Shown here piece after piece: positions 19,718-39,894 of a DNA stretch of 40,145 nucleotides. Source of the DNA: Lachnospiraceae bacterium (GTDB lineage: Bacteria; Bacillota; Clostridia; Lachnospirales; Lachnospiraceae). Each line of letters begins with the position of its first letter. Position 1 is the first letter of the stretch. Both the position numbers and the translations under genes were made by a program. The notes below the pieces were generated by a model that saw nothing but the letters and a program-made list of their open reading frames with translations, was not told the DNA's origin and did no database searches. The stretch lies in NCBI GenBank assembly GCA_030524525.1, contig JAUNGI010000005.1, positions 73,047-113,191 on the forward strand, read 5' to 3'.

Positions 19718-19747
19718 ATATAACAAACTAAGAAAGGAAGGATGCTT

Positions 19748-22078
19748 ATGAAAAAGCACAAAATCATCTCGCTGGTTCTGGCGGCGCTGCTTTTGCTGTC
19801 CAGCGCTTCCAGCGGCTTGGGCATTGCACAGGCGGCGAACACCGGAACCACCGAGAACAAGCAGTCTGCCGCGTATTTTTTAGTAAAAGAGACGTCAGAC
19901 GGCAGTTGGCTTACAAAGTACAACTGGATTCACTACATCACGATCGGCGGTACGAAGTACCCGGCGTACTGCGTGGAATCCAGCCGTACCAATCCGTTAG
20001 ACGGTGCGACCTACGAGCAGATCGACAGCAGCTCCATGGGGTATTCCTCGACGGCGCTGTCAGGGCTGCGGGAAATCGTCAGGAACGGCTATCCGTACAG
20101 CACGAAGATCAATGGTACAAGCCTGAGCGCGGAACAGGCACAGGCAGCCACCCAGATGGCGATCCGCATGTGGCTCTCTTACCGCAAGGAGCAGGAGGGC
20201 GCGAGCTACAACGTCTCCGGCATGTACAACCCGGAACCGGCAGCCGGAAATGTCCGTATCAAAGCCGGGACCGCGTCCGGTGCGACGGACGTTTACAACG
20301 CGGCGATCGCCTTGTACAAGATCGCCAAGTCCGGGAGTACGACAACGTTTAGTGTGGCAGCAACAAGTACCGGCAGCGTGACGTTCCCGACCAGTACCAG
20401 CGATCCGTATTATCATGTACAGATCAGGGTCACAATGACCGGCTGTGACTACGCAACTCTTACGGGATTGCCGTCGGATGTTACCATACTGGCGGTAACA
20501 TCCGGTACAAAAACACAGATTAAAAACGGAGCAGTGGTAACGCTACAGGTTCCTGAAAGTTATGCCGGCAAGACGTTACAGTATACGCTGACCGGTTACA
20601 GTAATAAAGGAAATACGTCCCTACAGTTTTATCGATCGAGCAATTCGCCGAACAGCTATCAACGGCTGTTTGTACCTGTGTCGAGCTATGCGTCGGTAAC
20701 GGGGAGCGGCGGGACGTATGCAATGCCGACTTATTCGCGCGGATCGCTGAAAATTCATAAGACAGATGTTGACACTGGAACGGCACTGTCTGGGGCGGTG
20801 TTTGCCTTTTATGAGTGGTCGGCAAGCAAAAACAACTACGTGCTCTCCGAGGACTACGTAATCCAAGAAACGGAGGAAAAAGGAACTTATACCTTGTTTT
20901 TGGCTGGTAATAGTGACGGAAAAGCCCAAATCCTCTACACCACCGAAAACCTCGGTAAGATCAAAGTCGTCGAGACCAAAGCGCCCGCCGGTTACTCCAA
21001 CATCGACCCCGCCACTGGGCAGCCCTACGAGTGGGAGCGGCAGTTCACCAACGACGGCGAGGTACATACCATCACGATCGATGCGGTGAACGAACGTGCG
21101 GAAACCGATGCCTACCTCTGCCTGTACAAGGAGAGCGACGCCAATCAGCCGCTTTCGGGCGTCAAGTTTAGCGTCTACTCCGACGAGGTGTGTAAGACCC
21201 TCTTGCAGACAATCAGTACCGACGCCTCCGGCTACGCCATCAGCACGGCGATCCCTGTCCAGATTGGCGAGGAACGCACCGTCTACGTCCGGGAACTGTA
21301 TCAGGGTGGCAGCTATGGCGGCGGCTACTATCTGCCGGACGATACGGTCTATACGGTGACGCTGACAGAAGCAAACACAGAGGATAACCCCGCGCGCGTG
21401 GGCGGCGAGGACTTCGTGATCGTCAACCAGCGGCGGCTTGCCTATCTGGAGCTGACCAAGCTGCGGGACGATACGGACGCGCCGATCAAGGGCGTTCGCT
21501 TTAAGATCTCTCAGACGGCGACGATGGACGCAGTGATCGAGACGATCACCACCGACGCTAACGGCTACGCCAAGAGCGCGGCGATCAACATCCCTGCCGA
21601 GGGCTATACGGTCTATGTGCAGGAGGTACCGCAGGACGGATATGTCCCGGACGACACGGTCTATGCGGTCAAGTTGTACTCGGATCGGATCGCGGTCGTA
21701 AACGACGGCCCGATCTACAACACGCCGACCAAGGTCGAGCTCAGTAAGACCGATCTTGTGACCGGACAGGAGATCCCGGATGCAAAGATGCGACTATGGG
21801 AAGTCGTGCAGCTTGGCAGCATGACGGCGCGGCAGATCGTTACGGTCACGACTGAGGACGGGCAGACCGGTACGAGCTGGATCACCACCGGCGAAGTAAC
21901 AAAGATCTATGCGCAGCTCAAGGCAGGGGCGACCTATATCTTGGAGGAGATCGCCGCACCGGACGGCTACCTGATCGCACACGAGGTGGAGTTTACCGTC
22001 AATGCAGACGGCAGCATCACCAAGGTGCATATGGAGGATGACTGTACGAAGGTGCTTGTGCGCAAGGTTACAAAGTAA
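19748..22078 (+). CDS. Secreted thioester-domain adhesin with SpaA/Cna-B-type repeats
   Basis: 776 residues with a cleavable signal peptide (ending ...SGLGIAQA). A thioester domain (about 35-190) has the Cys75 motif YPAYCVE and the partner Gln136 in ATQMAIRMW, expected to form an internal Cys-Gln thioester that can bond host amines. At least four Cna-B/SpaA-like domains follow (from about 330). Each has a strand-A lysine (LKIHKTD, LCLYKES, LELTKLR, VELSKTD) and a late E-x-x-APxGY-like element (VVETKAPAGY, EEIAAPDGY), the setting for isopeptide bonds. The C-terminus (TKVLVRKVTK) has neither LPxTG motif nor membrane helix. GGAAGG places the start at 19748. It heads a three-adhesin operon. Confidence 0.88.
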   Translation: MKKHKIISLVLAALLLLSSASSGLGIAQAANTGTTENKQSAAYFLVKETSDGSWLTKYNWIHYITIGGTKYPAYCVESSRTNPLDGATYEQIDSSSMGYSSTALSGLREIVRNGYPYSTKINGTSLSAEQAQAATQMAIRMWLSYRKEQEGASYNVSGMYNPEPAAGNVRIKAGTASGATDVYNAAIALYKIAKSGSTTTFSVAATSTGSVTFPTSTSDPYYHVQIRVTMTGCDYATLTGLPSDVTILAVTSGTKTQIKNGAVVTLQVPESYAGKTLQYTLTGYSNKGNTSLQFYRSSNSPNSYQRLFVPVSSYASVTGSGGTYAMPTYSRGSLKIHKTDVDTGTALSGAVFAFYEWSASKNNYVLSEDYVIQETEEKGTYTLFLAGNSDGKAQILYTTENLGKIKVVETKAPAGYSNIDPATGQPYEWERQFTNDGEVHTITIDAVNERAETDAYLCLYKESDANQPLSGVKFSVYSDEVCKTLLQTISTDASGYAISTAIPVQIGEERTVYVRELYQGGSYGGGYYLPDDTVYTVTLTEANTEDNPARVGGEDFVIVNQRRLAYLELTKLRDDTDAPIKGVRFKISQTATMDAVIETITTDANGYAKSAAINIPAEGYTVYVQEVPQDGYVPDDTVYAVKLYSDRIAVVNDGPIYNTPTKVELSKTDLVTGQEIPDAKMRLWEVVQLGSMTARQIVTVTTEDGQTGTSWITTGEVTKIYAQLKAGATYILEEIAAPDGYLIAHEVEFTVNADGSITKVHMEDDCTKVLVRKVTK

Positions 22079-22265: not shown

Positions 22266-22321
22266 AAAAGCAGAGCAAGGCAGTTATGCCATAGGAAATT
22301 TTGAAAGGAAGGAAACATACT

Positions 22322-23053
22322 ATGAAAAAGAAGATCTTACTGATCATTTTATCTCTGACCCTGATCTTAGGGTCTGTATCTGTTGCAGTCGCAGCCGTTA
22401 CCGGCGGCGAAGAAAAGAATGAGGCGGCGAAAGCCGCCGACGCAGCGGCAACCGGCTCGGACAAGGGCGCGGAAACCAAGGCTCCGCAGTACGAAGTCAC
22501 GATGCTGCACAGCGTAGTCTCCGGGGCGGCCGTGATCGGATCGCACTTGCAGATCCTCGATAAAGACGGGGACATTATGGACGACTGGATCACCGACGGT
22601 ACCGACCATGTGATCAACGCAAGGCTGATCGCCGGGGAGACGTACACGCTGCACGAGGTATCGGCTCCGGCGGGCTATGTGCTGGCGCCGGATGTGACTT
22701 TCACCGTCAGCGAAGACGGCAGCATCGACGAGATTGTGATGCAGGACGATTACACCAAGATCCAGTTTGTTAAGATTTCCGAGCTGACGGGTGAGCTGCT
22801 GGCGGACGTGCATATGCAAGTCTGGGACAAGGACGACAAGGTGATCTTGGATTGGATCACCGACGGCACGATCGCACAGGCGGACGGGCTGCTGGTCGCC
22901 GGAGAGACCTATACGCTGCATGAGGTGTCCGCGCCGAACGGCTATGTGCTGGCGGACGACGTGACCTTTACGGTCGGTACGGACGGCGAGCTGCAGACGA
23001 TCACGATGACCGACGATTACACCAAGGTACGGATCAAGAAGACGACGAAGTAA
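22322..23053 (+). CDS. Secreted SpaA-like (Cna-B) protein without a sorting signal
   Basis: 243 residues. A signal peptide (MKKKILLIILSLTLILGSVS, then VAVAA) and a short Ala/Glu linker precede two SpaA-type domains (about 62-150 and 150-243) that are near repeats of each other. Each repeats DWITDGT, AGETYTLHEVSAP(A/N)GYVL, VTFTV and DDYTK. The lysine in FVKISELTGE and the glutamate in LHEV are candidates for an intramolecular isopeptide. There is no LPxTG motif or membrane anchor. The ribosome site is AAGGAAGG. The same domain style occurs in the genes before and after, suggesting duplication within the operon. Confidence 0.85.
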   Translation: MKKKILLIILSLTLILGSVSVAVAAVTGGEEKNEAAKAADAAATGSDKGAETKAPQYEVTMLHSVVSGAAVIGSHLQILDKDGDIMDDWITDGTDHVINARLIAGETYTLHEVSAPAGYVLAPDVTFTVSEDGSIDEIVMQDDYTKIQFVKISELTGELLADVHMQVWDKDDKVILDWITDGTIAQADGLLVAGETYTLHEVSAPNGYVLADDVTFTVGTDGELQTITMTDDYTKVRIKKTTK

Positions 23054-23202: not shown

Positions 23203-23979
23203 ATGAAAGCATTTACAAAACGGCAGAGCCGTCTGTTGCTGACCGGTCTGCTGGTCGGTGTTTGTCTGCTGACCGCCGGTTTGCTGGGGCATTACAGCCG
23301 TGCGGCAGAGAGCCAAGCCGTCACGATGCAGGGGCACTCGTACGAGATCCGCACCGGCGAGCCGGTGATCGGCGCAGTGCTGCATCTGCTGACGGCGGAC
23401 GAGACGCTGATCGCCGAGCTGGTGACGGACGGCGGAGACATCGTCTTTGACGCGGAGCTGACCGCCGGGGAGACGTACATTCTGCGGGAGGTCGCAGCGC
23501 CGCCCGGCTATGTGCTGGCGGAGGATGTGATCTTTACCGTGAGCGCAGACGGCAGTATCGACGAGATCGTGATGGAGGACGATTACACCAAGGTGGAGAT
23601 CGTCAAACTCGACGGACGGGATCAGCCGCTGGCGGGCGTGCCGTTTGAGCTTTGGGACAAAGACGGCAACGTGGTCGAGGAATGGATCACGACCGAGGAG
23701 CCGCATCGGATCTGCGCAAAGTTGATCGCCGGAGAAACGTACACGCTGCACGAGGTCAAAGCGCCGGAAGGGTATCTGCCGGCTGACGACCAGACGTTTA
23801 CCGTGAGCGAGGACGGCAGCATCGACCGGCTGACGGTCTACAACATCCGGAGCGATACGCCGCAGACCGGCGACCATAGCCCGATCTTTTGGCTTGTGGT
23901 GATCGGCGCGGCGGACGTGGTATTTTTTATCGGCGCGGGGCTTTGGATTGCATGGCGGAGGCGCAAAGAGACGGTATAA
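23203..23979 (+). CDS. Cell-wall-anchored SpaA-like (Cna-B) surface protein with TPQTG sorting signal
   Basis: 258 residues. The signal peptide (LLLTGLLVGVCLLTAGLLGH, then YSRAAES) is followed by two SpaA domains (about 40-125 and 127-215) of the same type as the previous gene: TAGETYILREVAAPPGYVLA and IAGETYTLHEVKAPEGYLPA. A sortase signal follows: SDTPQTGDHSP, a hydrophobic helix (IFWLVVIGAADVVFFIGAGL) and a basic tail (WRRRKETV). TPQTG is a variant of LPxTG/NPQTN; no sortase is encoded in the window. This is the only protein of the operon with an anchor. Confidence 0.88.
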   Translation: MKAFTKRQSRLLLTGLLVGVCLLTAGLLGHYSRAAESQAVTMQGHSYEIRTGEPVIGAVLHLLTADETLIAELVTDGGDIVFDAELTAGETYILREVAAPPGYVLAEDVIFTVSADGSIDEIVMEDDYTKVEIVKLDGRDQPLAGVPFELWDKDGNVVEEWITTEEPHRICAKLIAGETYTLHEVKAPEGYLPADDQTFTVSEDGSIDRLTVYNIRSDTPQTGDHSPIFWLVVIGAADVVFFIGAGLWIAWRRRKETV

Positions 23980-27738: not shown

Positions 27739-28095
27739 ATGGGAGCACGAAATTGCGGATTTGTCTTACGTTTGACAGCGGAGGAGCTGGCACATTTGGA
27801 TGCCATGGTCGCGCGAACAAATCTATCGCGCGAGGAGTTTTTACGCAAAATGATTGCCGGCTATACCATTGTCGAAAAGCCGGACATCGATTACTTTGAG
27901 GTGATCCGGCAGCTGCGTTACATTGGCAACAACCTACGGCAGATGGCGATCCGGGCGCACGCGCTCTACCTGATCGATGCCGACCGGGTTATGCAGCGGA
28001 CGGATGAGGTGATCGCGATTACAAATCAACTTGCGGCAGCGGTCAACCGGCATCTGCCTCCGGCACAAAAACGCAAGGAAAAAATACAAGAATAG
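27739..28095 (+). CDS. mobC: MobC-like relaxosome accessory protein
   Basis: 118-residue ribbon-helix-helix-type protein that helps the relaxase open oriT. FVLRLTAEELAHLDAMVART, then NLSREEFLRKMIAGY (about 8-42) gives the RHH DNA-binding fold, and VIRQLRYIGNNLRQMAIRAH is the conserved MobC core. AAAAGGAGAAAAG precedes the ATG. The gene starts 40 nt after the oriT-like repeat and 20 nt before the giant helicase gene, so it belongs to the relaxosome operon. Confidence 0.88.
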   Translation: MGARNCGFVLRLTAEELAHLDAMVARTNLSREEFLRKMIAGYTIVEKPDIDYFEVIRQLRYIGNNLRQMAIRAHALYLIDADRVMQRTDEVIAITNQLAAAVNRHLPPAQKRKEKIQE

Positions 28096-28114: not shown

Positions 28115-31100
28115 ATGGCAAGAAAATATGACTTGATTACCGAATTGTATAATCGCACCTGTAAAACGGTTATACAGTATCCGCAGAGCTGGGAAGCATT
28201 TTTGCGGGCTGCCTGTTGGAATTATAGACTGCGTTTTGATGAGCAGCTACTTGTCTATGCACAAAGACCCGATGCGACGGCGGTACTGGAAATCGAACGA
28301 TGGAACAAAAGCTTTGGGCGCTGGGTAAATCGTGGCGCACAGGGAATTGCGGTATTTGAGGATGCGGATAGGAGCAAGCAGCGTCTTATCTACTATTTTG
28401 ATATTTCTGATACCCATGAAAGCCGGCACTCACGTCCGGTGCCGAGCTGGCAGATGAAGCCAGAATACAGCGGTGAGATTATTGATACACTTGAAAGCAC
28501 CTTTGGAGAACTTGATAATAAAGCCAGTCTGGAAGATGCGATCATGAGCGCTGCAAAAAATGCCGTTGAGGATAATATTATTGACTATTTGCCCGATCTG
28601 CTCTACTCGGTGGAGAATAGTCTTTTGGATGGGGTCAGCGCTGAAGAAATATCGTTTATTTACAGGGAAACGGTGCGGAATAGCGTGGCATATATGCTGA
28701 TGTCCCGACTAGGGATGGATACCAGTAATTGTTTTGAGCTGGATGATTTCCGGGGCGCTGTGAGTTTTACGACGCCGGAAACGCTGAATGCCCTTGGCAT
28801 TGCTACAAGCGACATTGCCAAAGTGGGACTGGCGGAAATTTCCCGTACGGTTAATGCGCTCGACAAAAAAGATCGCATCATTGACGGAAATAAAAAGGTT
28901 GGTTACAATATTAAAAAAGATAACGAGGAAAGGAGTTCCAAAAATGAACGAGATCAAATACACGATGCAGGGCGATTACAGCCTACCGAACCTGATCATG
29001 CCGGAACAGCCGGAGGTGAGCTTGGGAAGATACGCCCAGATGAGAAGAACATTTCTCAAGGAACATCACAAAGTACGCTATTACAACCTGCTGACGAGCT
29101 GCAAACTGAACGCACACTTGGTGGAAACCGAGCAGAGAGCCTTGACGCTGGAGGAGACATTGATCCAGCAGATGGCGGCACAGGAAGGAATAACAGAGAG
29201 TCTGAAAGCGGCGGATATGATGTCGTGGGTTCGGAAGATGAACAATTTGAAGAACCGGGTGCAGGAGATCGTGAAAGCGGAAGTAATCTTCGCTTAGTCT
29301 ACGACCGCCAGTACGAGGATAAAAGCCTTCCCTTTTTCGGCAAAGATGAGGTTATCAATGAAATGCTTGGAACGACGCCGCACCTGAAAGCGTCAAAGGG
29401 CGAAATTAGAGCCTTTTATGAAAACACTCTCGACGATACCGCTCGAACCGAATATATCAAGGGTATTTTCAATGACGATTACACCGAACTTATCCTGAGC
29501 GATGGCAGGCGTGTCGGTTACAAAACCTTTGAGAATGTGCTGCATTTGTGGGAGGGCAGCTATTTACAAAGAACAGCACAAGGCTATTATGATTGGGGGG
29601 TTATCGCAAAACATTTTGAAGCAATGCGGCTTTTGGGAGAGCTGCAAGATAGCATTAAACCATTACCGTCGCTGGACGGACAGCTCACACTGATGTTTGA
29701 GGCAGAGGACAAAAAATCCTCTGCCTTTACCTTTTCTCAGGAGATTATTGACGCTGTTTTCCGGTCAGCGGAATCCGGGAGGAAAATGCGTATTAATGAG
29801 CAGTTTGAAAAGAGTCTGTCTGCAAAAGAAAACGCAGACTTCCTCAAAGCGGAATATGGTTTGGGCGGCTCCTATCCCGTCATTGCTGGCACAGGGATTC
29901 ACGAGAAGCACGATGGAAAAGGGATCAGCCTTTCCAAGGAGATTGGCAGTGACGAGCTGCATATTTTGCTCAACTGGAAACAGGTTGAGAAACGCATTGA
30001 CGAGCTTATCAAACTGGACAGATACCTGAATCCAAAAGAAAAGGCACAGTATCCCGAATGGATTGAGAAGCAGGAAGCAAGACGAGCCGAGCTTGCAGGG
30101 CAACAGAAAAACCGTGAAATCCTCTCTCTTGATGATGAACAGGTAAGGCTCTATGATACTGAGCAGAGTCTTATTGGTATAGTTACACCTGACCTTGCTA
30201 CTCGTCTGACTATGCTTGTGAAAGATTTAGATTACTATGGCTATCAAGACAATATGGAGTTAGGTGATACGGATGAAGATATAGTTGCTCAAGTCAGAGG
30301 TTTTCTGGCTGATCCTGATGAAATTCCTGTTATTCTTAATTATCTCAATGATATTGATAGAGATGATCTAACAGCGGAAGATCAGAAAGAACTTCGTGAA
30401 TTGATAGCTTCCCTACAGGACTTAGAGCATAAAATTCCGGTCAATGAGATTTCCGAGCATAACGAAATCGCAAAAGCTTTGGAGCCTGTTATTCCTGCTT
30501 GGGAGCAGAAGAAAAAGGAACGAATAAGAAGCTATGATCTTCACCCTGAAATTCCGATGGTGGAACGACATGATTTCAATCTCAGAGAAAATGAGGTGGA
30601 AATCGTCGGCAAAAAAGAACGCTTCCACAGAAACCTTATGGCAATCCAACTGCTCAAAAAGTGTCAGGAAGAAAATCGGTTTGCCACGCCTGACGAGCAG
30701 GAAATCCTTTCAAAGTATGTTGGCTGGGGCGGCATTCCCGAAGCCTTTGACGAAAACAATTCCGCTTGGACAACAGAGTTTTTGGAGCTGTCTGCCGTGC
30801 TTGCGCCGGAGGAATATGAGAGTGCAAGAGAGTCTGTCTTAACGGCATTTTATACACCGCCGGTGGTCATTGCAGCAATCTATAAGGCGCTGGCGCAGAT
30901 GGGGTTCCATGAGGGGAATATCTTAGAACCGTCGTGCGGTATCGGAAGCTTTATTGGTATGCTGCCGGAATCCATGAAAGGCAGCAGAATGTATGGTGTA
31001 GAAATTGATACAGTCTCGGCGGGCATTGCGCAGCAGCTTTATCAGAAAACCTCAATTGCAGCACAGCCGTTTGAGGAGGCAAATGTTCCGGACAGCTTCT

Positions 31101-34100
31101 TTGACGCTGTTGTGGGGAATGTGCCGTTTGGAGATATTCGTATCAACGACAGGCGGTACAATAAACACAACTTCCTGATCCATGATTACTTTTTTGCTAA
31201 GTCCCTTGATAAGCTCAGACCGGGCGGCGTAATGGCGCTTGTGACGAGCAAAGGCACGATGGATAAGGAAACCCCTGCTGTTCGAAAATATATCGCACAG
31301 AGAGCCGATCTGCTCGGTGCGATCCGATTGCCAAACAACACTTTTAAGGGTAATGCCGGAACGGAGGTCGTTTCCGATATTCTGTTCTTGCAGAAGAGGG
31401 ACAGGCTTGTGAATATTGAGCCGGATTGGGTTTATCTTGATACCGATGAGAATGGAATTAAGATGAACTCGTATTTTGTCCAGCACCCCGAAATGATACT
31501 TGGCGAGATGAAAATGGTAAGTGGGCGCTTCGGTATGGAGAGTACCTGTGAGCCGTATGAAAACGCTGATCTGAAGGCGTTGCTTGAAGAAGCGGTACCG
31601 AATATTCACGGAGAAATAACAGCGTATGCAATCGAAGAACTGGAGGAGGAAGATAACTCTATTCCCGCCGATCCGAATATACGCAATTACTCCTATACGG
31701 TGGTAGACGAGAAAATCTACTATCGGGAAAACTCCAGAATGACGCCTGTAGGGTGTTCTGCTACAGCGGAAAATCGCATGAAGGGAATGATGGATATCCG
31801 AGATTGTGTGCGGCATTTGTTGGAAATGCAGACGGAGGATTATCCAGATGAAGAAATCAAAGCCGAGCAGGGACGCCTGAATCGTCTCTACGACAAGTTC
31901 ACAGAAAAATATGGTTTGATTAACAGCCGCGCGAATGTATCTGTTTTTTCGCAGGACAGCTCTTTTGTGCTGCTGTCCGCACTGGAGGTGCTTGGAGAAG
32001 GAGGCGAGCTGGAGCGTAAGGCGGATATATTTACCCGCAGAACGATCAGGACGCATAAGCCGGTTACTTTTGTAGATACGGCAAGCGAAGCACTTGCCGT
32101 ATCTATGGGGGAAAAAGCGCATGTAGATATGGAATATATGCAGCAGCTTACGGGAAAGAGTGAACGGGAGATCTTTGCAGAATTGAAAGGTGTTATCTAC
32201 CTGAATCCAATGTACGGCGATGCGGAGAGCACTGAAGCAAAGTATCTGATGGCGGACGAATATCTTTCTGGCAATGTGCGAGAGAAGCTCGCTTGGGCGA
32301 GAAAGTCCGCCGAGGTTTATCCTGAAGATTTCAAAATCAATGTAGAGGCGCTTGAAAAAGTGCAGCCGACAGATTTAACAGCCAGTGAGATTTTTGTGCA
32401 GCTTGGTACGACTTGGCTACCCGAAGAAATCGTGCAGCAGTTTATCCATGAATTTTTGGATACGCCGATATGGGCAAGGTATAACATTAAAGTCCACTAC
32501 TCAAAATTCACAAGCGAATGGAATGTGGAGGGGAAGTCCTACGATCGATCCAATGTAAAAGCATACAGCACCTACGGCACAAGCCGAATCAACGCCTATA
32601 AAATTATTGAAGAAACGCTGAATATGAAGGATGTCCGTATCTTCGATTATGTCGAGGACGACGAGGGCAAAAAGAAAGCGGTTCTCAACAACAAGGAAAC
32701 GCAAATCGCACAGGCAAAGCAGGAGCTTATTAAGCAGGGCTTTAAGGATTGGATATGGAACGATCCTAAACGCCGGGAAAAGTTGGTCAGACTCTACAAT
32801 GAAAAATTCAACAGTATCCGTCCCCGTGAGTATGACGGAAGCCATATCATATTCAGTGGAATGAATCCTGAAATCGAGCTGCGGGAACATCAGAAAAATG
32901 CCGTTGCCCATATCCTTTATGGAGGAAATACGCTTTTGGCTCATACCGTAGGAGCAGGAAAAACCTTTGAAATGACAGCCGCCGCAATGGAATCCAAACG
33001 GCTCGGACTGTGCAGTAAATCCCTGTTCGTTGTCCCGAATCATCTGACCGAGCAATGGGCGGCGGAGTTCTTGCAGCTCTACCCGGCGGCAAACATTTTA
33101 GTCGCAACGAAAAAAGACTTTGAATTGAAAAACCGCAAGCGTTTTTGCGGCAGGATTGCAACCGGAGACTACGACGCTGTAATTATCGGGCATTCTCAGT
33201 TTGAAAAAATTCCGATAAGCCTTGAGCGTCAGAGAGTGGTTTTACAGCAGCAAATCCGGGATATTACAAACGGAATCCGAGATCTGAAAGCAAACAGGGG
33301 AGATCAATTCTCTGTAAAGCAGCTTGAGCAGACAAAAAAGTCTTTGAATGTAAAGCTGGAAAAACTGAATGATCAATCGAGAAAGGATGATGTGGTTACT
33401 TTTGAAGAACTTGGAATAGATAGGCTTTTCGTTGATGAGAGCCACTACTATAAGAACCTTTTTTTGTATACCAAAATGCGAAATGTGGGTGGTATCGCTC
33501 AGACAGAAGCACAAAAAAGCTCAGACCTCTTTATGAAGTGTCGTTACCTAGACGAGATTACGGGAGGACGCGGTATTGTGTTTGCAACGGGGACGCCGAT
33601 TTCGAATTCGATGACAGAACTCTACACCATACAGCGGTATCTGCAATACGGTACACTTGAAAAACATGATCTTCAGCATTTTGATGCGTGGGCTGCCAAC
33701 TATGGCGAAACGGTAGTCGTAACAGAACTGAAGCCTGAAGGTACGGGGTATAGAGCAAAAACTCGCTTTGCACGGTTCAACAATCTCCCGGAACTCATGG
33801 CGATGTTCAAGGAAGTGGCGGACATTAAGACTGCAGATATGCTTAAACTGCCTGTACCGGAGGTTGAGTATCATAACATCGCCGTAAAGCCTACACAGAT
33901 CCAAAAAGAAATGGTTGCAGAGCTTGCAGAACGAGCGGAAGCTATCCGTGGGGGAGGTGTAAATACAAGTGTCGACAACATGCTGAAGATTACCAACGAC
34001 GGAAGAAAGCTTGCTCTTGACCAGCGTATGATAAATGAAATGCTGCCTGATGATGAAGGCAGCAAGGTCAACGCTTGTGTCAACGAAGTGTACCGTATTT

Positions 34101-35347
34101 GGGAGGAAACCACGGATAAGCGGTCAACGCAGTTGGTCTTTTGTGATCTTTCGACACCGAAGGGCGAGGGATTTTTTTCAGTTTATACCGATATGCGAAA
34201 AAAGCTGATTGGTAGAGGGATTCCCGAATCAGAAATTAAGTTTATCCACGAAGCGGACACGGAAGCCAAAAAGCAGGAACTTTTCAAAAAAGTTCGTAAG
34301 GGCGAGGTGAGAATCCTTATCGGCTCAACGGCGAAGATGGGAGCAGGAACGAATGTACAAAACAAGATCATTGCTTCCCATGATATTGATTGTCCGTGGC
34401 GACCAAGTGATCTGGAACAGCGAGCAGGAAGAACCGTCCGGCAGGGAAATGAAAATTCAAAGGTACATCTTTATCGTTATGTTACGGAGGGCACCTTCGA
34501 CGCCTATTTGTATCAGCTTGTAGAGGGAAAACAGAAGTTCGCAAGTCAGATCATGACGAGCAAATCGCCTGTCCGCTCCTGCGAGGATATCGACGAAACG
34601 GCGCTTAGCTTTGCTGAAATAAAAATGCTCGCAACAGGTAATCCGCATATCAAGGAAAAGATGGACTTAGACATTCAGGTATCGAAGTTACGGTTACTTA
34701 AATCCAGCTATCTCTCTGAAAAATATGCTTTGGAGGATAAGGTCGTTAAATATTACCCAAAGAGAATCGCACAGATAAAAGAGTCTATTTCAAATCTTGA
34801 AAGCGATTTCAAACGGGCAAGCGAACACCCGAAACCAACCGATGACCACTTTGTCGGTATTGAGATTCAGGGTATCGCCTTCCTCCAGAAGGCGGACGCA
34901 GGGCAGAAAATCATTGAAGTCTGCAAGGGAATGACATCTCCGGATCCGATTCCTCTTGGTAAGTATAGAGGTTTTGATCTGGAGCTTTTCTTCGAGATTT
35001 TCGAACAGGTTTATAAAGTGAAAATCAAGGGAGATGCTTCGCGGACTGTCACATTGGGTACGGATGCTATCGGTAACATTACCCGGATTGATAACGCCAT
35101 TGAGAAAATTGCTGAACGACTAGTGGCGCAGCGACAGGAGCTTGCGGAAACCGAGAAACAGCTTGTTAATGCCAGAAAAGAGGTGGAGAAACCGTTTGCC
35201 TATGAAAGTGAATTAAAGGAAAAAACGGAACGTCTGAATGCTCTCAACATTGCGCTGAATCTGCATGAAAAGGATATGGTTGTTGTTGATGATGAGCCTG
35301 TGCAGGAGGGAAAAATCCAGAAGCCTCAAAGGAAACATATCCGTTAA
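28115..35347 (+). CDS. Giant ArdC-like / N6-adenine methylase / SNF2-type helicase protein
   Basis: 2,410 residues. An ArdC/LtrC-like N-terminus (WEAFLRAACWNYRLRFDEQL, about 26-90) is followed by a charged linker (about 277-395). The N6-methylase domain (about 860-1090) carries the SAM motif EPSCGIGSF (about 938) and the catalytic motif NVPFG (about 1002; family form NPPY/F). The SNF2-like helicase has Walker A HTVGAGKTF (about 1612), the DESH box (about 1773), GTPISNSMTELYT and motif VI EQRAGRTVRQGN (about 2102). In related ICEs such proteins accompany conjugation and may protect or remodel entering DNA. The linker region also encodes tnpV in another frame (28944-29297). The start at 28115 has GGGAGGTG upstream. 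Confidence 0.92.
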   Translation: MARKYDLITELYNRTCKTVIQYPQSWEAFLRAACWNYRLRFDEQLLVYAQRPDATAVLEIERWNKSFGRWVNRGAQGIAVFEDADRSKQRLIYYFDISDTHESRHSRPVPSWQMKPEYSGEIIDTLESTFGELDNKASLEDAIMSAAKNAVEDNIIDYLPDLLYSVENSLLDGVSAEEISFIYRETVRNSVAYMLMSRLGMDTSNCFELDDFRGAVSFTTPETLNALGIATSDIAKVGLAEISRTVNALDKKDRIIDGNKKVGYNIKKDNEERSSKNERDQIHDAGRLQPTEPDHAGTAGGELGKIRPDEKNISQGTSQSTLLQPADELQTERTLGGNRAESLDAGGDIDPADGGTGRNNRESESGGYDVVGSEDEQFEEPGAGDRESGSNLRLVYDRQYEDKSLPFFGKDEVINEMLGTTPHLKASKGEIRAFYENTLDDTARTEYIKGIFNDDYTELILSDGRRVGYKTFENVLHLWEGSYLQRTAQGYYDWGVIAKHFEAMRLLGELQDSIKPLPSLDGQLTLMFEAEDKKSSAFTFSQEIIDAVFRSAESGRKMRINEQFEKSLSAKENADFLKAEYGLGGSYPVIAGTGIHEKHDGKGISLSKEIGSDELHILLNWKQVEKRIDELIKLDRYLNPKEKAQYPEWIEKQEARRAELAGQQKNREILSLDDEQVRLYDTEQSLIGIVTPDLATRLTMLVKDLDYYGYQDNMELGDTDEDIVAQVRGFLADPDEIPVILNYLNDIDRDDLTAEDQKELRELIASLQDLEHKIPVNEISEHNEIAKALEPVIPAWEQKKKERIRSYDLHPEIPMVERHDFNLRENEVEIVGKKERFHRNLMAIQLLKKCQEENRFATPDEQEILSKYVGWGGIPEAFDENNSAWTTEFLELSAVLAPEEYESARESVLTAFYTPPVVIAAIYKALAQMGFHEGNILEPSCGIGSFIGMLPESMKGSRMYGVEIDTVSAGIAQQLYQKTSIAAQPFEEANVPDSFFDAVVGNVPFGDIRINDRRYNKHNFLIHDYFFAKSLDKLRPGGVMALVTSKGTMDKETPAVRKYIAQRADLLGAIRLPNNTFKGNAGTEVVSDILFLQKRDRLVNIEPDWVYLDTDENGIKMNSYFVQHPEMILGEMKMVSGRFGMESTCEPYENADLKALLEEAVPNIHGEITAYAIEELEEEDNSIPADPNIRNYSYTVVDEKIYYRENSRMTPVGCSATAENRMKGMMDIRDCVRHLLEMQTEDYPDEEIKAEQGRLNRLYDKFTEKYGLINSRANVSVFSQDSSFVLLSALEVLGEGGELERKADIFTRRTIRTHKPVTFVDTASEALAVSMGEKAHVDMEYMQQLTGKSEREIFAELKGVIYLNPMYGDAESTEAKYLMADEYLSGNVREKLAWARKSAEVYPEDFKINVEALEKVQPTDLTASEIFVQLGTTWLPEEIVQQFIHEFLDTPIWARYNIKVHYSKFTSEWNVEGKSYDRSNVKAYSTYGTSRINAYKIIEETLNMKDVRIFDYVEDDEGKKKAVLNNKETQIAQAKQELIKQGFKDWIWNDPKRREKLVRLYNEKFNSIRPREYDGSHIIFSGMNPEIELREHQKNAVAHILYGGNTLLAHTVGAGKTFEMTAAAMESKRLGLCSKSLFVVPNHLTEQWAAEFLQLYPAANILVATKKDFELKNRKRFCGRIATGDYDAVIIGHSQFEKIPISLERQRVVLQQQIRDITNGIRDLKANRGDQFSVKQLEQTKKSLNVKLEKLNDQSRKDDVVTFEELGIDRLFVDESHYYKNLFLYTKMRNVGGIAQTEAQKSSDLFMKCRYLDEITGGRGIVFATGTPISNSMTELYTIQRYLQYGTLEKHDLQHFDAWAANYGETVVVTELKPEGTGYRAKTRFARFNNLPELMAMFKEVADIKTADMLKLPVPEVEYHNIAVKPTQIQKEMVAELAERAEAIRGGGVNTSVDNMLKITNDGRKLALDQRMINEMLPDDEGSKVNACVNEVYRIWEETTDKRSTQLVFCDLSTPKGEGFFSVYTDMRKKLIGRGIPESEIKFIHEADTEAKKQELFKKVRKGEVRILIGSTAKMGAGTNVQNKIIASHDIDCPWRPSDLEQRAGRTVRQGNENSKVHLYRYVTEGTFDAYLYQLVEGKQKFASQIMTSKSPVRSCEDIDETALSFAEIKMLATGNPHIKEKMDLDIQVSKLRLLKSSYLSEKYALEDKVVKYYPKRIAQIKESISNLESDFKRASEHPKPTDDHFVGIEIQGIAFLQKADAGQKIIEVCKGMTSPDPIPLGKYRGFDLELFFEIFEQVYKVKIKGDASRTVTLGTDAIGNITRIDNAIEKIAERLVAQRQELAETEKQLVNARKEVEKPFAYESELKEKTERLNALNIALNLHEKDMVVVDDEPVQEGKIQKPQRKHIR
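28944..29297 (+). CDS. tnpV: TnpV family protein, overprinted inside the giant helicase gene
   Basis: A 117-residue TnpV protein in the +1 frame of the 2,410-residue gene. Family marks are MQGDYSLPNLIMPEQPEVSL, GRYAQMRRTFLKEHHKVRYY, NLLTSCKLNAHLVETEQ, EGITESLKAADMMSWVRKMN and the ending EIVKAEVIFA. It has its own strong ribosome site AAAGGAG (28929-28935), 8 nt before ATG 28944, which argues for independent translation. The helicase frame stays open throughout as a hydrophilic linker. A stand-alone homologue lies at 39517-39894. TnpV's biochemical function is unknown. Confidence 0.85.
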   Translation: MNEIKYTMQGDYSLPNLIMPEQPEVSLGRYAQMRRTFLKEHHKVRYYNLLTSCKLNAHLVETEQRALTLEETLIQQMAAQEGITESLKAADMMSWVRKMNNLKNRVQEIVKAEVIFA

Positions 35348-35363
35348 GAGAGGGGGTGATTTT

Positions 35364-36563
35364 ATCGCTTACACAAAGATCTGGGCGGTACATACCCGGC
35401 TGGATCATGTGATCGACTACGTCGAAAATCCAGAAAAAACTCGAAATCCGGACTATCAGGAGGCGGGCTATGAGGACTTGGAGACGGCGTTAACCGGCTT
35501 AACCGGCGGGACAGAATACCGCGCAGAAAAGGCGCTCTATGTAAGCGGATTAAACGTAGATCCAGCGACCGCTTACGAAAGTATGATGGCGACGCAGGCG
35601 CTGAGCAGCCGGGGAAAGATCCTTGCTTTTCACGGGATCCAGTCCTTTGAACCGGGGGAGGTGACACCGGAGGTCTGCCACGAGATCGGCGTAAAGCTTG
35701 CAGAGAGGCTGTGGGGAGATCGGTTTGAGGTGATCGTATCGACACACCTTGACGAGGAGCACCTGCATAACCACTTTGTTGTCAATGCGGTAAGCTTTGT
35801 GGATGGGCGGCGCTGGAAGCAGGACATCCATGCCCGCTGGGAGCTGCGGGATGCAAGCGACGAGCTGTGCCGCGAGTACGGCTTAAGCGTGATCGAGCAT
35901 CCGCGCAAAGGGCAGGGGCAAAATTACGCCGAGTGGCAAGCAGAGCAGGAGGGACGACCGACAAAAAGAGGTAGTATCCGGCGGGATATTGACGCCGCGA
36001 TCCGGGAATCGGGCAGCATGGACGAGTTTCTCCGGATCCTGCAAAAAAGAGGCTACCGTATCCGGCTGACCGGGAAGCATCCGGCAGTATTGGCGCCGGG
36101 TGCGGATCGCTGGAACCGGCTGTATAAGCTTGGTAGTGCTTATGAGCTGGAAGCCATTGCAAAGCGCATCCGCAATCGCCGCACACCGCCGCAGCATCCG
36201 GCAAAGCAGCGGTACCGGAACCATCGTTATCAGGTAAGCATTGGCAAGCTACTGTTTCCGGGGATACGGGGGTACTACTACCGTTTGCTTTACGATATCG
36301 GCGTATTGCCCAATAAGCGGGCGCGGCAGATCTACCGCCGACCGAAGGAGGATCGTCGGGCGGTCTACCGGCTGGATCGATACTCGGAGGAGCTGCGATT
36401 GCTATCAAAGTATCGCATCAGCGCCATCACCGAATTGCAAATGTTGGAAGGGAGGCTGAAAACGGAAAAAGAGGAACATCCGGAGCAGGCGAAAAGGATA
36501 CAGCGGGAGCTGCGAACCTGTAAGCGGATCCGGGAACGGTTTGAGAAAGACCGAGTACGTTAA
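35364..36563 (+). CDS. MobP-type conjugative relaxase with apparent ATC start
   Basis: About 399 residues. It cleaves oriT and attaches to the DNA end. AYTKIWAVHTRLDHVIDYVE, NPEKTRNP and LYVSGLNVDP are typical of Clostridial ICE relaxases. The metal-binding histidine triad is in STHLDEEHLHNHFVVNAVSF (about 125-144). The C-terminus is basic and helical (RRPKEDRRAVYRLDRYSEEL). The homologous start would be ATG-Ala-Tyr-Thr-Lys, but codon 35364 is ATC. AGAGGGGG (35349-35356) is spaced properly for it. The nearest in-frame ATGs (35265-35292) lie within the helicase gene without a ribosome site. It follows the helicase stop by 16 nt. Confidence 0.85.
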   Translation: MAYTKIWAVHTRLDHVIDYVENPEKTRNPDYQEAGYEDLETALTGLTGGTEYRAEKALYVSGLNVDPATAYESMMATQALSSRGKILAFHGIQSFEPGEVTPEVCHEIGVKLAERLWGDRFEVIVSTHLDEEHLHNHFVVNAVSFVDGRRWKQDIHARWELRDASDELCREYGLSVIEHPRKGQGQNYAEWQAEQEGRPTKRGSIRRDIDAAIRESGSMDEFLRILQKRGYRIRLTGKHPAVLAPGADRWNRLYKLGSAYELEAIAKRIRNRRTPPQHPAKQRYRNHRYQVSIGKLLFPGIRGYYYRLLYDIGVLPNKRARQIYRRPKEDRRAVYRLDRYSEELRLLSKYRISAITELQMLEGRLKTEKEEHPEQAKRIQRELRTCKRIRERFEKDRVR

Positions 36564-38615: not shown

Positions 38616-38635
38616 TGCACCACTGGCGCATTTTT
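38616..38635 (+). terminator. Short terminator-like hairpin after pcfB
   Basis: TGCACCACTGGCGCA, self-complementary with one mismatch, followed by TTTTT. Same 15-base sequence as at 24364-24378. The stem is short, so strength is uncertain. Confidence 0.5.
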
Positions 38636-38654
38636 GGAAAGGAGAGGAGACTTT

Positions 38655-39464
38655 ATGGCGTCAAACAAAACATCAGAGACATCAGAAAAAACTGAACAGG
38701 CTGACCTTTTGAATCAAGCCAGAGAAACGGAAAAAGAAGCGTTGTGCCGCATGATCGGCGAAGAACTTTTGGCGTGTCGGCAAACGGATCGCTTACGTAG
38801 CTTTTTGGAGCTGCTCGTGCGATTTCCACAGCTTACAACAGAAAATCTGTTGCTGCTGGCAAAGCAGGCGCCCGCAGCCACGCGGATCGGCACGGCGGAG
38901 AACTGGTTTGCCAGCGGCAACCCGATCCGAAAAGGTGCACGTGCGATCCGGCTGCTAAACGCTGAGGGAGCAGTGGAACGCTGGTACGATCTCTCACAGA
39001 CGATGGATGTGCCGGCAAGACGTCCGAAACATCCATCGGAGGGCGTCTTGGCAGGCGATGCGCCGAGAGACATGGATACGATCCGAGAGTTGATCGTATG
39101 CCTGATGTGTAATGCGCCGGTGCGCTTTACGGTGGTGTCGCCAAGCCCTTGGGAGAGCCGGTGTACGCCGTATCATCCGATCGATTGGGATTCCGGCAGC
39201 AACACGCTGCACATCTTACGGGGCGTGGAGGCGACGGAGCTGCTTTACAACGTCGCATGGATCCGCGCTGCCCGATGCCCGGCGGCGGAGGAGGCAGAAA
39301 AGCCGTCGGAGCAGATGGAGGCGCCGGAGGAGGTGGCGGACAAACCGCCGGACGAGCTGGCTTGGCTGACTGCGGCTCTGGCTGCCTATGTATTTTGTCG
39401 GAGGTGTGGCATGGATATGCCATACTTGTTCGTGAAGAGTTCAGTTGCCTTGAATTTATCATGA
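38655..39464 (+). CDS. ArdC-like antirestriction/ssDNA-binding protein, C-terminally truncated
   Basis: 269 residues. The N-terminal ArdC-like ssDNA-binding domain (about 40-120) shows [40 protein letters not shown] and [13 protein letters not shown]. It is a relative of the N-terminus of the giant helicase. A helical segment near the end ([20 protein letters not shown]) recalls the zincin-like C-domain of ArdC. The frame then runs into unrelated residues (KSSVALNLS) and stops, with no HExxH-type site. The ribosome site is AGGAGAGGAG. The tnpV/DUF6809 module directly follows, so the gene looks cut by that insertion. Confidence 0.78.
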
Positions 39465-39516: not shown

Positions 39517-39894
39517 ATGGAGCATTTACCAAAGAAAATCCATCAAAACGGCATCAGCTACACGCTGGTGGGAGACTACTACATCCCCGATCTGAAGCTG
39601 CCGGAGGAAAGCCGCCCTATCGGACTGTGGGGCCGGATGCACAAGACGTTTCTGCAAGAACACCGGCCCGGCCAGTACAACGCCCTGCTTCTGTCGGGAA
39701 AACTCTGGACATATCTTGCTGACCTGAACGAACAGGCCGTTGACCGGCTAGCGTGTATCGTCTCGCAGATGCAGGAGGCGGAGGGCGTCACCGAGGAACT
39801 GAAAGCCCGTGACCAGCTTGCATGGGTCGGGGGTATGAACAGCATCCGCAGCCGGGCAGAGGAAATCATCCTCTCTGAGATGATTTTTGTCTGA
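39517..39894 (+). CDS. tnpV: TnpV family protein, stand-alone copy
   Basis: 125 residues: [92 protein letters not shown]. This is the complete family pattern, shared with the overprinted copy at 28944-29297. The ribosome site is CAGGAGG. The alternative frame that is open in the helicase copy is closed here by a stop at about 39721, so this one is not dual-coding. It is followed after 13 nt by a DUF6809 gene, its usual neighbour. Upstream, the ArdC-like gene appears disrupted. Confidence 0.88.

Follow-up and report, generated by a model that had tools for sequence, protein, structure and literature searches.

How can some 350 nt of a bacterial gene come to hold two complete reading frames, and which of the two products is under selection? 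The question is raised by a stretch of DNA of a Lachnospiraceae bacterium (assembly GCA_030524525.1, contig JAUNGI010000005.1, positions 73,047-113,191 of the forward strand). This stretch of 40,145 nt is called the window below; coordinates are window positions, and labels such as L010 and L201 denote individual loci compared in this analysis. A giant ORF of the window (28115..35347, plus strand, 2410 aa) showed the Pfam domains N6_Mtase (residues 910-1097), SNF2-rel_dom (1605-1781) and Helicase_C (2029-2111), a combination in one protein that identifies it as a methylase-SNF2 helicase of mobile elements. An ArdC-like ssDNA-binding domain was looked for in residues 1-528, which gave no significant match to Pfam; Listeria plasmid relatives of the helicase carry an ArdC-like annotation. 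A NikA/MobC-like mobilisation protein is encoded just 5' of the helicase (27739..28095, plus strand; PF21983 53.9 bits, PF05713 25.9 bits), and the 3' end of the helicase gene is overlapped by the ORF of a MobA/VirD2-type relaxase (35265..36563, plus strand; PF03432 127.4 bits), which as listed starts 83 nt before the helicase ORF ends (35265-35347). Surface proteins of the Thioester-domain and SpaA type are found in the same region (19742-22078, 22301-23053 and 23203-23979), together with ParA/ParB and a Toprim protein. On account of these neighbours the region is taken to be a mobile element.

The second gene, tnpV, lies wholly within the helicase gene in its +1 frame (28944..29297, plus strand, 117 aa; the ATG is at 28944 and the stop codon ends at 29297). 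In keeping with the original prediction of a complete TnpV-family protein with its own ribosome site, the product matched Pfam PF14198 over positions 1-111 of 111 (140 bits, E 3.8e-41, cut-off 27), which places it in the same protein family as TnpV of Tn4451, and the Shine-Dalgarno sequence AAAGGAG (28929-28935, plus strand) is situated 8 nt 5' of the ATG. Such start signals are the rule. Among 116 complete nested tnpV genes 114 start with ATG, and a Shine-Dalgarno match of at least 4 bases precedes 109 and one of at least 6 bases 85. The corresponding figures for 2911 out-of-frame ATGs elsewhere in the same helicases are 15.3% and 0.7%, and stand-alone tnpV genes (n=28) reach at least 4 bases in 21 and at least 6 bases in 10 cases. 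AlphaFold2 predicted TnpV as a beta hairpin and five helices with a mean pLDDT of 88.2.

In the helicase frame the same DNA (28943..29299, plus strand) corresponds to residues 277-395, which are open and read as the polar linker first described. In the AlphaFold2 model of residues 1-528 a central stretch, residues 254-402, had a pLDDT below 50 and hardly any secondary structure beyond one helix ending at 257; it lies between confidently predicted parts and covers the whole overlap, so that the linker is predicted to be disordered. The other stretches with a pLDDT below 50 are residues 54-111 and 514-528, and the rest of the N-terminal domain is predicted to be mostly folded. In an alignment of 20 helicases over residues 265-395 the only fully invariant columns were E272, R273, E376, Q377 and G384. 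E272 and R273, an invariant Glu-Arg, are the Shine-Dalgarno bases read in the helicase frame, and E376 and Q377 are made from the bases of the TnpV codons Met99-Asn100-Asn101. The odd polar linkers with their recurring ERS and DEQ motifs thus arise because the Shine-Dalgarno bases and the TnpV codons are read in another frame. The linker strings given for related helicases in the original prediction were matched in kind, for instance by GLSDSQPATD and GGPDEQLQ in L010.

Is the arrangement peculiar to this window? Relatives were sought with the helicase N-terminal domain alone (28115..28942, plus strand; alignment A1, window residues 1-276), which lies 5' of the tnpV ATG. No tnpV codons are contained in this query, yet each of its nine rows was taken from a locus with a nested tnpV, and a bias in favour of helicases of this kind is possible. 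The genome collection yielded at least 584 confirmed loci, of which the best 80 were fetched. In 78 of these best 80 a TnpV match was nested at offset +1 within an ORF that is open there; three of the 78 copies are cut by a contig end, and in the two misses the contig ends before the place of tnpV. All sources together provided 152 unique near-full N-terminal domains with at least 450 nt of 3' DNA (69 named genome loci, 8 viral contigs, 8 plasmids and 67 further genome loci), which as related sequences do not count as independent events. Left out before counting were identical sequences, proteins below 85 aa, tnpV genes incomplete at contig ends (4/120), helicase matches with less than 450 nt downstream (8/160) and matches of fewer than 200 model positions or 60 bits; the last limits excluded the Listeria locus L283.

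Disruption of the tnpV frame in relatives had been named as a finding that would speak against dual coding. Instead, 149 of the 152 relatives showed a TnpV match at the same place, all 149 in +1 phase and 148 of them over at least 80 codons, the remaining one (L203) being a fragment of 47 codons. The +1 phase was also found in 136/136 nested loci and in 150/150 unique complete proteins. The helicase frame continued past the tnpV stop in 147 of the 149, so that among the 152 relatives examined both frames are open over the same bases in 147 nested cases. In 95 no stop was met in all of the available sequence, and in 47 the frame stayed open for at least 500 nt; in the other five (L104, L167, L203, L205 and L211) it closes within 5-302 nt, and these look like shortened or broken helicases. 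Three relatives have no tnpV: L201, which lacks the linker as well, and L109 and L296, in which the N-terminal domain is present and the ORF stops after it. Nested copies occur in Clostridia, Erysipelotrichia and, on plasmids, Bacilli. The hosts include Oscillospiraceae, Lachnospiraceae, Eubacteriaceae, Christensenellaceae and Erysipelotrichaceae, and the plasmids come from Cohnella, Virgibacillus, Anaerococcus, Aerococcus, Ruminococcus, Listeria and Streptococcus. When ten of the most distant nested ORFs were compared with Pfam, eight exceeded the PF14198 cut-off; L018 fell below it (20.9 bits) and L190 had no PF14198 match, and both match the TnpV model built here. The main claim of the original prediction, dual coding across the family, is supported, and the overlap is more widespread than first claimed.

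The two frames were then compared for constraint. In the helicase flank, differences at codon positions 1, 2 and 3 amounted to 0.128, 0.090 and 0.367 (305 pairs). In the overlap of the same number of pairs the differences were 0.122, 0.096 and 0.238 at positions 1, 2 and 3 of the tnpV codons. The third position of tnpV is the first of the helicase, and the third position of the helicase is the least variable in the overlap. In 39 disjoint pairs the pattern was identical. An OLGenie-like count on these 39 pairs gave a dN/dS for TnpV of 0.21 (NS/SS; 95% interval 0.14-0.33) and 0.20 (NN/SN; 0.175-0.23), with all bootstrap limits below 0.34, and for the helicase frame of 1.02 (SN/SS; 0.71-1.53) and 0.97 (NN/NS; 0.87-1.12). 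With all 305 pairs the values were 0.17 and 0.22 for TnpV and 0.71 and 0.91 for the helicase frame. The flanking helicase N-terminal domain had a dN/dS of 0.129, and when the estimator was applied to this domain with a pseudo +1 frame, it returned 0.13/0.12 for the helicase and 0.86/0.83 for the pseudo-frame. Because the codon-position pattern is flipped and dN/dS is about 0.2 as against about 1.0, TnpV is the constrained, selected protein, and the constraint is lopsided: nested TnpV is under strong purifying selection, and in the overlap of the 39 disjoint pairs none was detected on the host-frame amino acids. Conservation of the linker in the helicase frame only, the outcome that was to tell against the original prediction, is the reverse of what was found.

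By dN/dS alone the helicase frame would look non-coding; the case for it is made by its openness, its composition and its conserved flanks. It might be supposed that the helicase is made as separate pieces and that the open frame across tnpV is not translated, and the annotation of NZ_OY725736.1, with entries for TnpV and for a helicase CDS that begins only downstream, agrees with this as does the linker dN/dS of about 1. Against this, the frame was free of stops over tnpV in 115 of the 116 complete nested cases and open through the tnpV stop in 114, the exceptions being L057, with an in-frame stop just before tnpV, and L168, with a stop inside it. In the third frame the 116 cases had 13.9 stops on average and never zero. 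When the codons of the 116 nested tnpV genes were permuted synonymously, the helicase frame was open in 7.0% of trials on average (median 2%), and with the codon usage of the flanking helicase in 0.33%; for the window's own tnpV the values were 12.5% with its own codons and 0% with flank usage. Stand-alone tnpV genes met stops in the equivalent frame in 59 of 60 cases, the exception being L231, in which the helicase frame is open over 162 aa by itself. The open helicase frame over tnpV is not due to chance. In the converse test, in which the helicase protein was kept, the tnpV frame came out open more readily, in 28.6% of trials with flank usage and in 9.3% with own codons. The open +1 frame alone is thus not decisive; decisive instead are the match to PF14198 and the constraint.

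The composition of the linker also argues against separate pieces. It is more acidic than synonymous shuffles (net 10.5 versus 5.5) and less hydrophobic (0.124 versus 0.139), with a hydropathy below the shuffles in 130 of 149 cases. Translation of stand-alone tnpV genes in this frame gives a basic and more hydrophobic sequence (net -14.1, hydrophobic 0.273). In other words, the linker amino acids are near neutral apart from openness and a somewhat acidic, polar composition, and it is very improbable that the helicase frame goes untranslated here.

Even less credible is the idea that the conserved element is DNA or RNA, such as an oriT or a regulatory structure, and not a second protein. It could account for strong nucleotide conservation where the helicase frame may vary freely, and also for the somewhat slow TnpV-synonymous sites, whose rate is about 0.66 of the flank synonymous rate (SN, 95% interval 0.59-0.74; SS 0.65, 0.41-0.96) and which at four-fold sites show 0.176 in the overlap as against 0.287 in the flank. 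However, the changes gather at tnpV third positions, those synonymous for TnpV are far commoner than non-synonymous ones, the ATG and the strong Shine-Dalgarno sequence are kept, and the TnpV family also occurs as free-standing genes without the helicase. The slow synonymous sites indicate that something besides the TnpV amino acids restrains them, and this extra restraint occurs although the helicase frame looks neutral. That the nested tnpV is left over from a recent insertion which the linker could tolerate has practically no chance of being right: tnpV genes do move and are frequent (some TnpV match, nested or not, was present in 76 of 196 class genomes), but the identical place and phase across the family, the co-inheritance with the helicase, the purifying selection and the nested copies in distant relatives refute it.

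We are thus left with dual coding. Judged on comparative grounds, about 350 nt of the helicase gene very probably encode two proteins in an old overlap of lopsided constraint. The +1 frame, with its own Shine-Dalgarno sequence and ATG, would produce TnpV, a small folded protein under purifying selection, while frame 0 would provide a disordered, mildly acidic linker that joins the N-terminal domain of the helicase to its methylase/SNF2 body. Both frames would presumably be translated from one mRNA. The helicase would mainly need this frame to be free of stops, and the residues of the linker, otherwise near neutral, would largely be set by the codons of TnpV and by its ribosome site. tnpV and the helicase have been passed on together across the Bacillota. 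The distances between nested TnpV proteins and those between the helicase N-terminal domains agree (Spearman 0.859 over 145 loci, a value reached in 0 of 500 permutations), which implies that the pair is inherited as a unit.

Which of the two came first? According to the original prediction an ancestral tnpV had entered the helicase gene in a frame that remained open. The data do not establish such an entry: among the helicases sampled the overlap appears to be the ancestral condition, and on the rootings tried stand-alone copies of TnpV fall within the nested diversity. A tree of 210 TnpV proteins (150 nested, 60 stand-alone; 118 columns, root not independently known) required at least 12 changes between the nested and the stand-alone state, five of them forced by starred branches. 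With midpoint rooting and with four nested rootings the root was nested in each case, and these five roots gave 8-11 exits from and 1-4 entries into the helicase gene. One clade of 49 rows (SH-aLRT 97) contained 48-49 stand-alone copies. That tnpV entered a linker already present in the helicase is unlikely. A birth of the TnpV family as an overprinted second frame of the helicase gene in an ancestral mobile element, followed by several escapes, is a possibility that we regard as somewhat less unlikely.

A third history has an even chance of being correct: a gene for the N-terminal domain and a methylase-helicase gene 3' of it may have been joined into a single ORF by reading through an intervening tnpV in the other frame. 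Such a fusion would make TnpV the older protein and the linker the new, overprinted one, and it is compatible with dual coding as set out above. It would fit with TnpV being the constrained, folded frame and the linker being near neutral and predicted disordered. A pointer in the same direction comes from the second, stand-alone tnpV of the window (39517..39894, plus strand, 125 aa; PF14198 148.6 bits), which has no overlapping gene and meets four stops in the equivalent frame, a closure that had been noted from the start. An ORF of 276 aa (38634-39464) without a Pfam match and weakly similar to the helicase N-terminal domain (21 bits) ends 52 nt 5' of it, giving the order N-terminal domain then tnpV, as in the helicase. 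Moreover, in L201 (655-3999), a helicase relative, the linker of about 115 aa and tnpV are jointly absent. L201 sits inside the tree of tnpV-bearing helicases, though beside a long branch, and suggests a natural case of a dispensable linker. Against a fusion it can be said that the unfused order of N-terminal domain, tnpV and helicase was not seen in the loci examined, that an ArdC-like ORF precedes tnpV only at the window's own copy (plus a 16-residue end match in L257), and that the midpoint and the four nested rootings all make the nested state the original one.

Two further observations concern stand-alone copies close to helicase genes. L205 (reverse strand, 1275-2168) has two successive TnpV-like ORFs, of which the first is nested in the +1 frame, with the helicase ORF ending 5 nt later, and the second is free-standing. 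In five helicase genes (L076 14191-14607, L081 14944-15313, L086 15490-15905, L094 7856-8272 and L099 15559-15975) the 11-bp sequence TTTTGCGGACA precedes the TnpV domain of a stand-alone tnpV by 53-55 nt. Close to it the helicase frame comes to an end, at a place corresponding to about residues 2102-2109 of the window helicase. The sequence matches the one that a passage of PMC9815147 reports at the flank of IMEs located in the snf2 genes of Streptococcus suis ICEs. Elements carrying tnpV thus seem to insert into a gene that also hides a tnpV.

What TnpV does may be approached through its partner. TnpV is strictly tied to the methylase-helicase, which suggests that it acts with this enzyme in processing DNA or in maintaining the element, and we tentatively propose, as a reading still short of probable, that TnpV is an accessory of these processes in the element, made together with the helicase, and not an excisionase. 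For TnpV of Tn4451 a function in excision has been postulated from its similarity to lambda Xis (PMC3158075, in the part dealing with that protein), and an excisionase or directionality factor for the element's recombinase would also agree with the large serine recombinases found among the neighbours of stand-alone tnpV genes (L231, L227 and L254). These recombinases made up three of the 20 neighbouring proteins scanned against Pfam, which came from 19 of 28 loci longer than 6 kb, but the others were a relaxase, Mob_Pre, RepA_N, YhcG nucleases, a methyltransferase and unrelated proteins. In addition, the predicted TnpV fold had no match at E 0.001 or better in searches of the PDB and of viral models, and no solved structure matched it usefully. 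We favour the accessory role and consider an excisionase improbable.

Few long gene overlaps on one and the same strand are known in bacteria, and they are disputed. Gene overlap as such is already known, and four cases were counted in E. coli in a passage of PMC4683798. The case of tnpV and the helicase is apparently unreported, as full-text literature searches found no description of it. The nearest bacterial parallel among the systems considered, nog1 in citC of enterohaemorrhagic E. coli, is likewise a protein of about 100 residues embedded in another frame; the passages of PMC4683798 devoted to it describe a -2 frame, a recent orphan that arose after the split of Escherichia and Shigella, and weak expression. 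The tnpV/helicase pair, on the other hand, is same-strand, is spread over the Bacillota and is of a known family; the purifying selection seen in it is strong, and the pair is known from sequence. Viral overprinted pairs (as treated in parts of PMC8227390) also obtain two proteins from one stretch in two frames, whereas here the setting is a bacterial mobile element and the varying frame is an internal linker of a giant enzyme. The TnpV homologues of Tn4451, Tn6104, Tn6105 and Tn6106 appear in the relevant part of PMC3158075 as genes in their own right; in the present case tnpV is wholly inside the helicase gene. In the S. suis ICEs TnpV and an SNF2 gene occur together as well, but TnpV there belongs to an inserted IME that interrupts snf2, and the passages of PMC9815147 concerned make no mention of a nested tnpV.

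Eight plasmid regions have annotated genes in the neighbourhood of the helicase. Not one of them records both genes for the overlap, in a gene table that describes itself as incomplete: TnpV is given in two (one with a helicase CDS starting downstream), the helicase alone in five and neither in one. Three further plasmid regions carry no annotation. A fault of annotation is thus indicated in the eight regions. The overlap itself is supported by scores of genomes, by a control family of free genes and by a measurable split of constraint between the frames, and because TnpV is tied to one specific partner gene its function becomes testable. If TnpV was indeed born in the helicase, the free-standing tnpV genes of transposons and plasmids, and with them a whole annotated family, would trace back to another gene's second frame.
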